Below, piece by piece: positions 24,075 through 38,985 of a stretch of 64,000 nt of DNA. Origin of the DNA: Methylopila sp. Yamaguchi. Lineage in GTDB: Bacteria > Pseudomonadota > Alphaproteobacteria > Rhizobiales > Methylopilaceae. Numbering within the stretch: position 1 is the stretch's first letter; the number at the start of each line of letters is the position of its first letter. Location of the stretch: the NCBI RefSeq assembly GCF_002897035.1, contig NZ_BAUX01000017.1:1-64000 (forward strand), read 5' to 3'. The notes beneath the pieces were generated by a model. The model had not been told where the DNA came from and made no database searches. It saw only the letters and a list, made by a program, of their open reading frames with translations. A program made the position numbers and the translations under genes.

Positions 24075-24128
24075 TGGCGCACCCGAGAGGATTCGAACCT
24101 CTGACCTCTGCCTTCGGAGGGCAGCGCT
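24075..24128. repeat. Left attachment repeat (attL), copy of tRNA-Arg 3' part
   Basis: The 54 bases are identical to 38932-38985. They begin with TGG, the complement of the tRNA CCA end, and run through the T arm and anticodon stem, then diverge. The truncated copy cannot encode a tRNA. Confidence 0.93.
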
Positions 24129-24251
24129 TGGCACATTACTCCATGTTCGGCTCAGTTTCTGAGTCCTATGAAATCCCTCATCGATCAACGGATATCGCTT
24201 TCCCTTTGGTTTCTAAGGCGTCCACGACATTGACGCGGATTACCGCCATCT

Positions 24252-24271
24252 GCTTCCGTAGCGCTTCCGCG
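24252..24271 (+). repeat. Left 20-bp direct repeat, candidate integrase/Xis arm site
   Basis: GCTTCCGTAGCGCTTCCGCG occurs here and again at 38866-38885 in the same orientation, near each end of the element. It contains GCTTCCG twice. It lies just before the integrase start. Confidence 0.65.
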
Positions 24272-24287
24272 GAAGAAGGTTGGATCG

Positions 24288-25523
24288 ATGGCGAAGCTGA
24301 CGAAACGAGTGGTCGACAACGCCGAGCCGCGCGCGTCGGATTTCTTCATATGGTGCGATGAGCTTCCCGGTTTCGGCGTCCGCGTCTTCGCGTCGGGGCG
24401 GAAGGGCTATGTCGTGCAGTACCGCGCCGCCGGACGTACAAGGCGGATTGCGCTCGGGGCGCACGGCGTCATTACGGCGGAGGAAGCCCGGAAGCTCGCC
24501 CGTGGGCACCTAGGCGACGTCGCCAAGGGCGGCGATCCAGCCGAGGAGCGGGCCACGCGCCGCAGCTCAATAACAATGGCTGAGTTGTGCGACGACTACA
24601 CCAGGGCATGCGGGAAGGGCATGATCCTCGGCAAGCGCGGGCTTCCGAAGAAGGCGAGCACGCTCGACACGGATCGAGGACGGATTGAGCGGCACATTAA
24701 GCCCCTGCTCGGTCGCAAGCTTGTGAAAGAGATCACCCGCGCCGACGTCGCGCGCTTCATTCACGACGTGATCGCCGGCAAGACGGCGACCGTCGAGAAA
24801 ACCGGCCTCCGGGGTAAAGCCGTCGTTGAAGGAGGGAGGGGGGCAGCTACGAGGACGGCCGGCCTTTTGGGCGGTATCCTCAGCTACGCCGTGTCGGTTG
24901 GCGTTATCGAGATCAACCCTGCGACGGGCGTGCGTCGTCCGGCTGACGGCAAGCGCAGCCGAAGGCTGACGCCGGAAGAGCTGCGGGCATTGGGCAAGGC
25001 GCTCGACGCCGCTGAGGCGGAAGGCGAGGGCTGGCAGGCTATCGCCGGCACCCGGCTATTTGCCTTCACGGGTTGCCGGCTGCAGGAAATCGAACGGCTG
25101 AAGTGGTCGGAGGTGGACATAGCAGGCCAATGCCTGCGGCTCCACGACAGTAAGGAGGGCGCGTCGGTCCGCCCGCTCGGCCGACCGGCCATTCGCGTCC
25201 TAGAGGGCGTCAGGCGTGAGTCTGGTGCGATCTTCGTGCTGCCAGCCGCCCGAGGGGGCGAAGGTCCTTATGGCGGGCTACCAGGCGGCGTGAAGCGGCT
25301 TACGGAGCGCGCTGGCTTATCTGGCGTTACGTCCCACGTGATGCGCCATACGCTGGCGTCGATCGCTGGCGACCTTCAGTTCTCACGGCCGACGATCGCC
25401 GCGTTGCTTGGCCAAGCTGGCGGTACGGTCACCGATAAATACATCCACCACCTAGACGCCGTTCTTCTTGCGGCCGCTGACAAGGTGGCCGGCGAAGTAC
25501 AGCGGCAGATGGCGGGCGTATAG
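24288..25523 (+). CDS. Tyrosine recombinase (tRNA-site integrase, DUF4102 type)
   Basis: A 411-residue site-specific recombinase. Residues 1-90 are the DUF4102 arm-binding domain seen in P4-like and island integrases (DELPGFGVRVFASGRKGYVV). A SAM-like core-binding domain lies at about 95-200. The catalytic domain has Arg264 (TGCRLQEIERLKW), Lys289, His350-x-x-Arg353 (SHVMRHTLAS) and Tyr385 (VTDKYIHH); the second His position is Gln (LLGQ). All catalytic residues except that one are intact. It should act between attL/attR here and the tRNA-Arg(CCG) gene. AGAAGG precedes the ATG. Confidence 0.94.
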   Translation: MAKLTKRVVDNAEPRASDFFIWCDELPGFGVRVFASGRKGYVVQYRAAGRTRRIALGAHGVITAEEARKLARGHLGDVAKGGDPAEERATRRSSITMAELCDDYTRACGKGMILGKRGLPKKASTLDTDRGRIERHIKPLLGRKLVKEITRADVARFIHDVIAGKTATVEKTGLRGKAVVEGGRGAATRTAGLLGGILSYAVSVGVIEINPATGVRRPADGKRSRRLTPEELRALGKALDAAEAEGEGWQAIAGTRLFAFTGCRLQEIERLKWSEVDIAGQCLRLHDSKEGASVRPLGRPAIRVLEGVRRESGAIFVLPAARGGEGPYGGLPGGVKRLTERAGLSGVTSHVMRHTLASIAGDLQFSRPTIAALLGQAGGTVTDKYIHHLDAVLLAAADKVAGEVQRQMAGV

Positions 25524-25686
25524 GCAAGCTAAAGCCAAGCATGCGAGGCGGTCACGGAACTTCCCGCGCGTGTCCACCGCGCCTTCGAGATTGCGCATGT
25601 GTACGCCATGGCTTTAGCGAAACACCCGATCCATGAATCTTACCATGATGAGAATAGTTCATCTCTGGCGTTATATAATAAAAGAT

Positions 25687-37283: not shown

Positions 37284-37348
37284 TCTCTGGCGAGAAATGC
37301 CCCAGGCTGCGCCAACATAGCTCGGAGCAGCCTTAACCGTGTCTCTCT

Positions 37349-38554
37349 CTACGGCCGCTTCAGTAACTCAACTACAGACGGAGGTGCGAGTTCGACGTCG
37401 GCTGGCTGCCCCGGCGCCGGGCGAAAGATCGCGTGAAGCGCCACAACGCGTTCATTTCCATCAATTGCGCCTTCTGCGATCAGTCCAAGATAGGTGTCTG
37501 CGACAGACTTCCGATATTGGGCGTCTTCTTCAAGATTCTGATTGCTTATGTATGAACGGCTGATGAGCCGGAGGACCCATGCAGCTAATAAAATTGGGCT
37601 AACGATTAGGATGGATGAAGAAAAGTTTGAGCTTTTAGATAGTTCCAATAACGAAGGCGGCGGAGATTGTAGTATAAGTATAATGGCAACTGAAAGGATT
37701 AAAGTGATTGCAAGGAATGCGATAAAGCTTCCGCGGGCGCGATTCCGATGTTGAACGATCTTGGATTCCCAGTGCGATAATGTAGGTAGCAGTCGCGCGC
37801 GCTCGTTATACGCTTCGGCCATCGCAGTTAATTTCTGATCAATTAACGCATTTGACTCGGAAATTGTGACATCAACCTTCTTATTCAAAGCATCCAATTT
37901 CGAATCAATTAGATGTTCAGTAGACTTGATTTGATGGGTAACGTCAGAGCGATAGCGGCCCGCGGCTTCTCTCGATTGTTCCACTTCGTCACTCAGTCGC
38001 CCGACTGCTAGGTCGAGTCTATCTATTAGATCGGCATGTGATTTATTATACGAAGTTTGGAATTCGTGAAATGTAGATATGACGTCCACAGACGAAATAA
38101 AAGCTTCCTGAGATGAATTGAGCTCAGAAGATAGTATTCTGTCGTCATTTCGAAAGAGTCTAATCTTATACGCGATAATTGCCGAGATCCAATAAGATAG
38201 CGGATTCAGGGATGGGCTATCTTCCGATGTTAACTCCCTCGTTACAAATGGAAGCGGCATTATTCCATTAGTTGAGTAATCCTGCCACTTTAGTGGAAGC
38301 AAAGATTCAATATAATCTCTAAACTCTCCATGTTTTATGAAATCAAGTAGAATAGACCAGCGATCTGATTGTTGTTTACAGAGCGCGAAAAGCTCCGTTG
38401 AGTCGGAGCGCCTTACACCTGATGGAAAATCTAAAGAGATTAATGACATGACTCGTTGAATTGCTTCAATGCTCGGTCTCCCATTAAGATTTGGAGTCAT
38501 TGCTGCTAACCATTTTCTCATTGAAGGGGGTGGGCGTGATTCTGCTAGGTGCAC
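37349..38554 (-). CDS. DUF6161-like membrane/coiled-coil protein (AT-rich cargo)
   Basis: A 401-residue protein. A polar N-terminal part (about 1-150) is followed by a long coiled coil (about 165-250, including SDEVEQSREAAGRYRSDVTH), a Leu/Ile-rich membrane span (FIAFLAITLILSVAIILIL, about 277-296) and a second one near 315-335. The C-terminal tail (YRKSVADTYLGLIAEGAIDG, then VALHAIFRPAPG) matches my memory of the DUF6161 family. Its DNA is clearly more AT-rich than the chromosome, as is the other cargo gene at 25687, and it stands on the opposite strand at the right end. A defence or phage-response function is plausible but unproven. The start (GTG at 38554, or ATG at 38521) is uncertain. 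Confidence 0.65.
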   Translation of the reverse strand: MHLAESRPPPSMRKWLAAMTPNLNGRPSIEAIQRVMSLISLDFPSGVRRSDSTELFALCKQQSDRWSILLDFIKHGEFRDYIESLLPLKWQDYSTNGIMPLPFVTRELTSEDSPSLNPLSYWISAIIAYKIRLFRNDDRILSSELNSSQEAFISSVDVISTFHEFQTSYNKSHADLIDRLDLAVGRLSDEVEQSREAAGRYRSDVTHQIKSTEHLIDSKLDALNKKVDVTISESNALIDQKLTAMAEAYNERARLLPTLSHWESKIVQHRNRARGSFIAFLAITLILSVAIILILQSPPPSLLELSKSSNFSSSILIVSPILLAAWVLRLISRSYISNQNLEEDAQYRKSVADTYLGLIAEGAIDGNERVVALHAIFRPAPGQPADVELAPPSVVELLKRP

Positions 38555-38865
38555 CTCGTTCGGTGCAGATCATGCAACTGCGAGCAGCCCGTCGAAAGGC
38601 CTTATGGGGAGCCCTGAAATTTAGTAGCGCTTTGGGCTGCCCCCGCCGGGAACCGGAGGCGCGTTAGCGGGACCGCGGAGTTGCCTTCCATGTCGCCTAC
38701 GCAATTCCCGGCGGCGGGCACTCTTGATTCTCTCAACTCGGGCAGCGAGCTTCGGTAGAGACCGACTTTGCCGCGTCCATCGAAGGCGCGGCGCTGATGT
38801 CTCACCCAAGGTCGCCCTATCGCGCGCGGATCATTGATTTCGATGAGCATGGGTTGACGCGCATC
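38555..38865. other. Right end of the element without a recognised gene
   Basis: This 311-base stretch holds a possible 82-residue minus-strand frame (38602-38850) with no good start and unlikely composition. I take it as noncoding. It probably contains binding sites for integrase and excisionase, as suggested by the 20-bp repeat at 38866. Confidence 0.4.
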
Positions 38866-38885
38866 GCTTCCGTAGCGCTTCCGCG
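38866..38885 (+). repeat. Right 20-bp direct repeat, candidate integrase/Xis arm site
   Basis: Identical to 24252-24271 in sequence and orientation (GCTTCCGTAGCGCTTCCGCG). It lies 46 bases inside the right attachment repeat. Confidence 0.65.
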
Positions 38886-38931
38886 CGGCGTCTCAGGCTG
38901 CCAACTTCTAGGGCTAAGTGCTTGAAAATGC

Positions 38932-38985
38932 TGGCGCACCCGAGAGGATTCGAACCTCTGACCTCTGCCTTCGGAGGGCAGCGCT
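38932..38985. repeat. Right attachment repeat (attR), inside tRNA-Arg
   Basis: Identical over 54 bases to 24075-24128. It covers the 3' part of the tRNA, from the CCA end to the anticodon region, so integration restored a complete tRNA gene on this side. Confidence 0.93.

Follow-up and report, generated by a model that had tools for sequence, protein, structure and literature searches.

Capsid-forming phage-inducible chromosomal islands (cf-PICIs) bring their own set of capsid, portal and large terminase subunit (TerL) genes, and, to our knowledge, other phage-inducible chromosomal islands (PICIs) carry no phage structural genes. It is well established that satellites control heads and packaging, while control of tails came to light only recently: it was first shown in 2026 for the PICI-like elements (PLEs) of Vibrio cholerae, where PLE11, PLE1 and PLE4 encode their own tape-measure protein (TMP) and form chimeric contractile tails (Mathur et al., 2026, PMC12987554). 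The same report notes putative tmp genes in other satellites, suggests a wider spread, and states in the legend of its Extended Data Fig. 10 that a sampling of cf-PICIs encodes putative tmp genes (PMC12987554). The genomes of PICIs are described as usually about a third of the size of the helper's, and EcCICFT073 as having cohesive-end sites (cos) with a different cosB that allow packaging by phage lambda (PMC6092414). The stretch analysed here, called the window, comprises 64,000 nucleotides of Methylopila sp. Yamaguchi (contig NZ_BAUX01000017.1, positions 1 to 64,000), and at 24075-38985 it contains a 14.9-kb island with a small terminase subunit (TerS) gene, a scaffold-like gene and a TMP gene beside a predicted lambda-type cos. 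This island is probably a helper-dependent, cos-type phage satellite that replaces the DNA-choosing, scaffold and tail-ruler parts of its helper.

The island is bounded by a perfect 54-bp direct repeat (24075-24128 and 38932-38985), the right copy of which is the 3′ part of a tRNA-Arg(CCG) gene called by ARAGORN, so that the sharp ends pointed out in an earlier note, made on this DNA from its letters, were confirmed. The GC content is 0.49-0.66 in most 1-kb steps of the island (0.71 in one), compared with about 0.70 outside. The joined flanks (query positions 2-306 of 388) matched a contiguous segment of genome G013 (G013:C1:3707834-3708144) at 80% identity, which represents an empty site; among the 12 other genomes of the genus only G013 gave this match, the remaining 11 matching mainly the tRNA side. 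The repeat in the tRNA gene and the empty site thus define a specific attachment site of the kind that PICIs use. The first half of the island holds the genes of an integrase, a pentapeptide-repeat protein, hypothetical proteins, an AlpA-like regulator, a primase/helicase, a further hypothetical protein, g8 and g9, followed by the cos-like block; the second half continues with terS, g11, the TMP gene, g13, g14, a second AlpA-like regulator and a DUF6161 gene. The features central to the argument are as follows.

24075-24128: attL, 54-bp copy of the tRNA-Arg 3′ end, 100% repeat of 38932-38985
31315-31689, plus strand: g8, 124 aa, likely a coiled coil (by eye)
31689-32234, plus strand: g9, 181 aa, marker of the island family (g9 profile search of 397 genomes)
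32578-32636, plus strand: predicted lambda-type cos, with cosQ GGGTCCT at 32578 and cosN-like GGGAACGC at 32607
32756-33304, plus strand: TerS of the Nu1 type, 182 aa (phrog_57, 1.5e-22)
33357-33917, plus strand: g11, 186 aa, matching an S49 head protease at its scaffold-like end, at the position of Nu3
33917-35758, plus strand: tail TMP, 613 aa (PF20155, 9.9e-18; phrog_973, 3e-45)
38932-39008, minus strand: tRNA-Arg(CCG), target gene, with attR at 38932-38985 (ARAGORN; repeat)

Searches of the 16 island open reading frames (ORFs) against Pfam and PHROGs gave no match to TerL, portal, capsid, tube, sheath or baseplate families. This bears out the earlier note, which had recognised no TerL, portal or capsid gene, and the profile check that it had proposed for such genes in disguise found none; the tested ORFs left without a family are at most 228 aa long, except for the proteins with pentapeptide repeats (337 aa) and DUF6161 (401 aa). 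The integrase (PF13356/PF00589, phrog_1), the two AlpA-type regulators (AlpA/HTH_17), the replication-type ATPase (phrog_35358, 'DNA primase') and the Nu1-like TerS that the note had read were all recovered by profiles, and the main ORFs showed neither stops nor frameshifts, as it had also said. Its lone TMP stood as well, since no other tail gene was recognised, while the length required correction from 614 to 613 aa (start at 33917; the frame gives 623 aa from 33887).

The island shares with the PLEs that it has its own satellite TMP, a likeness set by the description of the PLEs and not by comparison of PLE proteins, and in PLEs the helper supplies the rest. The PLEs also bring a tail chaperone and PLE11 a hub protein, and their helper is the virulent phage ICP1 (PMC12987554), whereas the island has no recognised tail gene besides the TMP, which is accompanied by TerS, the scaffold-like piece and the predicted lambda-type cos. 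With Gram-negative PICIs it has in common the integrase, the AlpA-type regulator, its own replication gene, the lambda-type cos and terS, which occurs in some of them; in contrast, the passages on EcCICFT073 in that report describe it as lacking capsid morphogenesis genes and mention neither a TMP nor a head-protease scaffold piece (PMC6092414). Either a cos/pac site or terS is expected of a PICI, and by sequence TerS and the cos-like block are both present. Exclusive genes not found in phages are another PICI trait, and g9 would be exclusive in this sense for the island family that it marks. Like the cf-PICIs, the island is a satellite with structural genes. Since it carries a TMP and a scaffold-like protein, in contrast to PICIs, and no capsid, portal or TerL of its own was recognised, in contrast to cf-PICIs, we would file it as neither of them nor as a PLE, though it probably works like them. 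The lambda order of cos, Nu1, A, B, C/Nu3 and, further on, H (NC_001416) is echoed by cos, TerS, (portal), S49/scaffold and TMP, but the island lacks the lambda genes that lie between and behind these.

The putative cos, which had escaped the earlier note, was found in the non-coding DNA between g9 and terS, where a 59-bp stretch (32578-32636) shares 91.5% identity with the corresponding position in G013 (E 2e-15), even though the adjoining g9 proteins are only 31% identical. A 22-bp core of this block recurs in genome G012 with a single difference, and the remainder of the G012 block has more changes and a one-base gap. Among the 397 genomes, which are samples of the order, the core was found with up to one mismatch in three, only in these islands; at two mismatches, nine other genomes gave one match each, and a reversed control about as many. 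The heptamer GGGTCCT starts 29 (window), 29 (G013) and 28 (G012) nt before GGGA. In lambda (NC_001416), the distance from its start to bp 1, where GGGCGGCGACCT begins, is 30 nt, and nu1 follows at 191; in the window, GGGAACGC lies 29 nt from the start of GGGTCCT and terS begins 149 nt further. We take the names cosQ and cosN, and their assignment in lambda, to apply to these two elements. In genome G247, five of five islands have GGTTCCT and, at a distance of 31 or 32 nt counted from the first base of this heptamer, GGGCGGCGACCCCG, which equals the lambda letters except the twelfth. The 16-mer GCGGGCGGCGACCCCG occurred at six places in 16 genomes, all in islands with g9 (reversed control, 0), namely once in each of the five G247 islands (L189, L195, L196, L197 and L199) and once in the G012 island. 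The heptamer alone proves nothing, because GGGTCCT recurs twice in the window island (36781, plus strand; 37572, minus strand), and it is the conserved block with its position that carries the prediction of a lambda-type cos before terS. No match to the core was found in viral contigs, nor were the cos letters found in open-licence papers. Neither terS nor a TMP was recognised in island L199, which keeps the cosN 16-mer GCGGGCGGCGACCCCG. In L006, the G012 island, this 16-mer (9116-9131) lies upstream of GGGTCCT with the window-type block downstream, possibly amounting to two cos sites. The island of genome G021 has GGGTCCT near terS, but no cosN was recognised there.

Relatives of the TMP were present in 527 of 50,697 phage records, all below 60% identity and none covering 80% of the protein, and the best of them were TMPs of Bordetella phages such as PBb002. 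In PBb002, the gene stands in the order sheath, tube, chaperone, TMP, circularisation and baseplate block, whereas the window TMP has no such company. The 132 loci collected with TMP profiles (80 viral and 52 from genomes) had a recognised sheath gene in 77 cases and any of the tail markers used in 89. The other 43 include many short contigs or other tail types (L035, L122, L124 and L159 were read gene by gene), and further islands may be hidden among them. Strong shortening of the window TMP was not supported, as its length is near the median of the 77 sheath-linked TMPs (608 aa). In a quick tree, built without the near-duplicates L035, L103, L114, L133 and L160 and without rows shorter than 180 aa, the TMPs of the window, G013 and G012 formed one clade and those of G021 and of a Methylocaldum island stood elsewhere, giving three island placements. 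The TMPs of L195, L200 and L201 (phrog_28-type) and of L193 and L194 (other types) also differ from that of the window, which indicates that TMP was acquired more than once; judged from the sequences, independent capture in separate islands appears to have taken place.

Pairwise estimates (NG86) of the ratio of nonsynonymous to synonymous substitution rates (dN/dS) demonstrated that these TMPs are under purifying selection. The ratio was 0.29 over 611 codons between the window and G013, 0.41 between the window and G012 (dS 1.1), 0.12, 0.15 and 0.13 among three G247 islands (845-869 codons), and 0.12 between two copies in G021. For other genes compared between the window and G013 it was 0.23 (g11), 0.21 (g4) and 0.33 (the second AlpA-like gene, alpA2), the values of g11, g4, g14, g13 and g9, but not that of alpA2, being weak since dS exceeds 1.5. 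In the same comparison, dS of the TMP (0.45) was below those of alpA2 (0.70), g9 (1.72) and g4 (1.76), which suggests that the TMP gene moves between islands independently.

The earlier note had passed over g11 as a morphogenetic gene. Its residues 67-186 correspond to the C-terminal 120 residues of the S49 head-protease protein of the G013 island (48% identity, 4e-30), and the S49 proteins align with lambda gpC over the protease part (probability 99.8). In the lambda record (NC_001416), the end of gene C is also a separate capsid-assembly gene, nu3. Taken together, the window keeps the end that lies at the lambda scaffold position and lacks the protease, and g11 may therefore be a scaffold.

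The g9 profile detected 20 loci in 15 of the 397 genomes, and one further island in the gammaproteobacterium Methylocaldum makes 21 islands. Among 17 newly fetched g9 loci, a related integrase was present in 14 and a tRNA gene in 12, and in the 11 islands where both ends could be placed the span from integrase to tRNA was about 7-15 kb. No match to g9 was obtained in the 50,697 phage records at E 0.01, and 311 pattern stretches in viral contigs left none confirmed. Among the loci searched, g9 and g4 matched only islands, and none inside a complete prophage, the setting that, according to the earlier note, would speak against its reading. The islands of G013 (TMP 83% identical) and G012 (TMP 50%) have the skeleton of the window island, with a tRNA-Ser gene in each fetched stretch; the G012 island reads TerS, S49 protease, TMP, and the G013 island lambda-type portal (PF05136, 4e-94), S49 protease, TMP, with no recognised TerS. 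In the island of Methylocaldum sp. 14B (NZ_MSCV01000001), which comes with a tRNA-Leu gene, the integrase, g8 and g9 genes are accompanied by a TMP of 545 aa as the only recognised structural gene. Counterparts of g8 could be aligned in the G013, G012 and Methylocaldum islands (23, 35 and 19% identity). G247 has five related g9 islands at different places in one genome; g9 is there 340 aa long, its extra N-terminal part standing at the position of g8 (a likeness by position, not homology). In G021, which belongs to another family, TerS, a protease-capsid fusion and a TMP are found together in an island next to tRNA-Lys, with no recognised TerL, portal or other tail genes and no g9 by profile.

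A TMP is present in 11 of the 21 islands (the window, L004 of G013, L006 of G012, L122 of Methylocaldum, L193, L194, L195, L196, L197, L200 and L201), those of L196 and L197 being assigned via 98-99% identity to L195, and these TMPs are of several kinds (PF20155-, phrog_28- and other-type). TerS occurs in at least seven (the window, L006, L185, L189, L195, L196 and L197), and an S49/ClpP protease or scaffold-like end in 12 (the window, L004, L006, L185, L187, L188, L195, L196, L197, L199, L200 and L201). No structural gene was recognised in L190, L191 and L198; L190, like L186, is a short contig. The 21 islands contain 298 ORFs, or 242 after removal of those more than 50% identical. In PHROG searches of 198 representatives, a set that still included g9 and some TerS, no capsid, portal, tube, sheath, baseplate or connector family was among the matches listed (25 of 44 and 25 of 27 matched families), and the other 44 ORFs were assigned by hidden Markov model (HMM) or PHROG, or by eye (several primases, helicases and transposases).

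Several side observations were made on these and similar loci. The G021 island beside tRNA-Lys (L102/L110, L103) also holds a 109-aa protein, and a second copy of its head-TMP block is 76% (head) and 96% (TMP) identical, which suggests duplicated modules. Locus L035 (IMGVR_UViG_2828001536_000006) was grouped with this arrangement of TerS, protease-capsid fusion, 109-aa protein and TMP. On two contigs of Tistlia consotensis USBA 355 (L159, L160), a head-fusion match is directly followed by a TMP of the window's family at the contig ends; these are maybe more islands of the G021 type. PADLOC detected defence-type cargo in sister islands, namely a PDC-M53A/B pair (L004, 6679-8245), type II restriction-modification (L006, 14617-16712) and a PDC-S35 TIR-like protein (L186, 994-1680). 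The remaining genes of the window island are listed here.

24288-25523, plus strand: tyrosine integrase, 411 aa (PF13356, 2.8e-16; PF00589, 1.2e-11; phrog_1, 3e-47)
25687-26700, minus strand: cargo protein of 337 aa with pentapeptide repeats (PF00805 above its threshold, 3.8e-5; PF13599 under its threshold, 3e-7), an N-terminal membrane anchor read by eye and no PADLOC match
27019-27414, plus strand: hypothetical protein, 131 aa, no Pfam or PHROG match
27579-28253, plus strand: g4, 224 aa, conserved in the G012 and G013 sister islands; its HMM matches only the window, L004 and L006 among the loci searched
28299-28658, plus strand: AlpA/excisionase-like helix-turn-helix (HTH) protein, 119 aa (PF12728, 5e-8; phrog_66, 5e-10)
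28707-30473, plus strand: replication primase/helicase, 588 aa (phrog_35358, 8e-78)
30542-31228, plus strand: hypothetical protein, 228 aa, no Pfam or PHROG match
35760-36173, plus strand: g13, 137 aa, after the TMP also in G012 and G013 (25-32% identity); single-sequence fold uninformative (predicted local distance difference test score 43)
36361-36744, plus strand: g14, hypothetical protein, 127 aa, with a G013 counterpart at 33% identity
36693-37283, plus strand: second AlpA-like HTH regulator, 196 aa (PF12728, 1.6e-8)
37349-38554, minus strand: DUF6161 protein, 401 aa (PF19658, 4e-12; PADLOC AbiZ, 3.5e-7), possible defence cargo

The satellite nature of the island, already proposed in the earlier note, gained support from the cos block, from sister islands in which the majority of head and tail genes went unrecognised, and from the purifying selection on TMP. 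According to this model, growth of a phage with lambda-type packaging in the cell would cause the island to excise and replicate, its TerS would steer the helper TerL to the island cos, and the scaffold-like g11 would adjust the helper shell. The island TMP would replace that of the helper and act as the ruler on which the helper's tube and sheath polymerise, while the helper would supply TerL, portal, capsid, tube and baseplate. The island would thereby retain the assembly 'jigs' (packaging specificity, head scaffold and tail ruler) and no building blocks. Since the TMP of PLE satellites enters chimeric tails and is needed for efficient transfer, we infer a similar use here, by which the island TMP would enter particles and change their tails.

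A number of observations weigh against this model. Excision, induction and packaging are deduced from gene content, and the roles of TerS and the scaffold from homology; g11 itself matches no Pfam family and no PHROG at a value below 0.028. Only eight of the 21 g9 islands (the window, G012, G013 and five in G247) have a recognised cos, and the window cosN letters differ from those of lambda, the likeness resting on the layout of cosQ and cosN. Of the PLE pair tmp and tac, the island has tmp, and neither a tail chaperone nor a hub gene as in PLE11 was recognised with Pfam and PHROGs, which gave g13 and g14 no identity. The island TMP (623-aa open frame) is shorter than its nearest contractile-phage kin (728 and 806 aa), and dN/dS of other genes between the window and G013 reaches 0.54 (0.54 for g13 and g9, 0.50 for g14). 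TerL was found in two of the 21 islands (L186, L192) and a portal in one (L004); because three islands keep one of these, the restriction to jigs is a trend, not a rule. Finally, neither a GpA-type TerL (PF05876), a lambda portal (PF05136), a sheath (PF04984) nor a second TMP of the window's family was found in the window genome, which rules out, as far as these four are concerned, a resident helper of the lambda-packaging contractile type.

Phages of the needed kind do infect the genus, since the same-genus genome G017 holds one (L239) with TerS, lambda-class TerL, lambda portal, sheath and tube, its capsid and TMP not being recognised by the profiles used. The TerS family of the window also directly precedes TerL, and then a portal, in phage contigs L246 and L247 (with S49 too in L247), and TerS relatives precede a TerL in L248 as well. 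Attempts to name a helper by protein identity failed, as the S49 protein of L200 (45% to a resident prophage of G349) and the TMP of L201 (40% to a resident prophage of G365) were too distant. Elements L229-L232 (G153, G012, G124 and G291) have lambda-class TerL, lambda portal and protease-capsid fusion, L232 additionally a TMP-like stretch, and they were rejected as helper prophages, L229-L231 showing an integrase-like ORF and no tail markers in the 20 kb fetched. The same three genes are found in L241-L245 of the same-genus genomes G010, G007, G009 and G017. An integrase-like ORF is present in six of these nine elements, with none of the tail markers used in the 20 kb fetched; they are possibly capsid-forming satellites, frequent in the genus.

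Among the other explanations, it is conceivable, though unlikely, that the satellite TMP is an anti-helper weapon that poisons tail assembly or gives the helper a wrong tail length without being part of the satellite particle. The PLE11 protein Rta is reported to interfere with helper tail assembly and to target the helper TMP (PMC12987554), and a foreign TMP made in excess could sequester tube and chaperone, but the islands keep full-length TMPs with a conserved N-terminal domain, and PLE TMPs are reported to enter particles, their loss costing 96-99.9% of transduction (PMC12987554). We give little credence to a decayed prophage, that is, a contractile phage with lambda-type packaging from which most head and tail genes were deleted. 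The TMP and TerS families of the island do belong to complete phages as well, and subsets of S49, portal, TerL and TMP vary between islands, as such decay would leave them. On the other hand, a shared skeleton of integrase, replication gene, g8-g9 and a few morphogenesis genes recurs at several tRNAs within the span given above, g9 is without match in the phage records, and selection on TMP is purifying although no other tail genes accompany it. Neither broken genes nor relaxed selection, the marks of a remnant, were found, the main ORFs being open and dN/dS of TMP being 0.29 with G013 and 0.12-0.15 in its kin. If genes had been retained in proportion to their lengths in PBb002, the chance of at least nine TMPs among 25 retained genes would be about 2e-4, and that of retaining no other tail gene about 8e-8, both values being rough, with independence assumed, gene counts of our own and G247 counted once. 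Considering selection, the conserved skeleton and cos, decay was rejected as the principal explanation. The least probable is that TMP, TerS and the scaffold fragment are passive cargo without a role, brought by recombination with helpers at the cos end, for although they cluster after the cos block and TMPs, with their lower dS, seem to move separately, TMP is under purifying selection in separate islands and different TMP families were captured repeatedly.

The satellite model can be extended, tentatively and with not quite an even chance of being right, to a widespread alphaproteobacterial family (g8-g9, with one gammaproteobacterial member) that keeps a lambda-type cos and 'jig swaps' TerS, the S49 scaffold end and TMP, a small set of non-repeating assembly factors, from helpers, where TerS would set the choice of DNA, the scaffold end shell size and TMP tail length. 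In open-licence literature on satellites, TMPs and Alphaproteobacteria/Rhizobiales, no paper title naming this island family was found. What it represents is a broader variant of the PLE-type use of TMP, not a new principle, and it offers sequence evidence for wider satellite control of tails in a group not linked here to PLEs. With g9, a marker is at hand for finding more such islands, and the presence of TerS, a scaffold-like piece and a tail ruler beside cos makes a testable claim on what a satellite must replace. If the proposal is true, satellites would, as a general strategy, match the ruler of the helper or alter the length of the tail, as the recurrent capture of unrelated TMP families would then imply.

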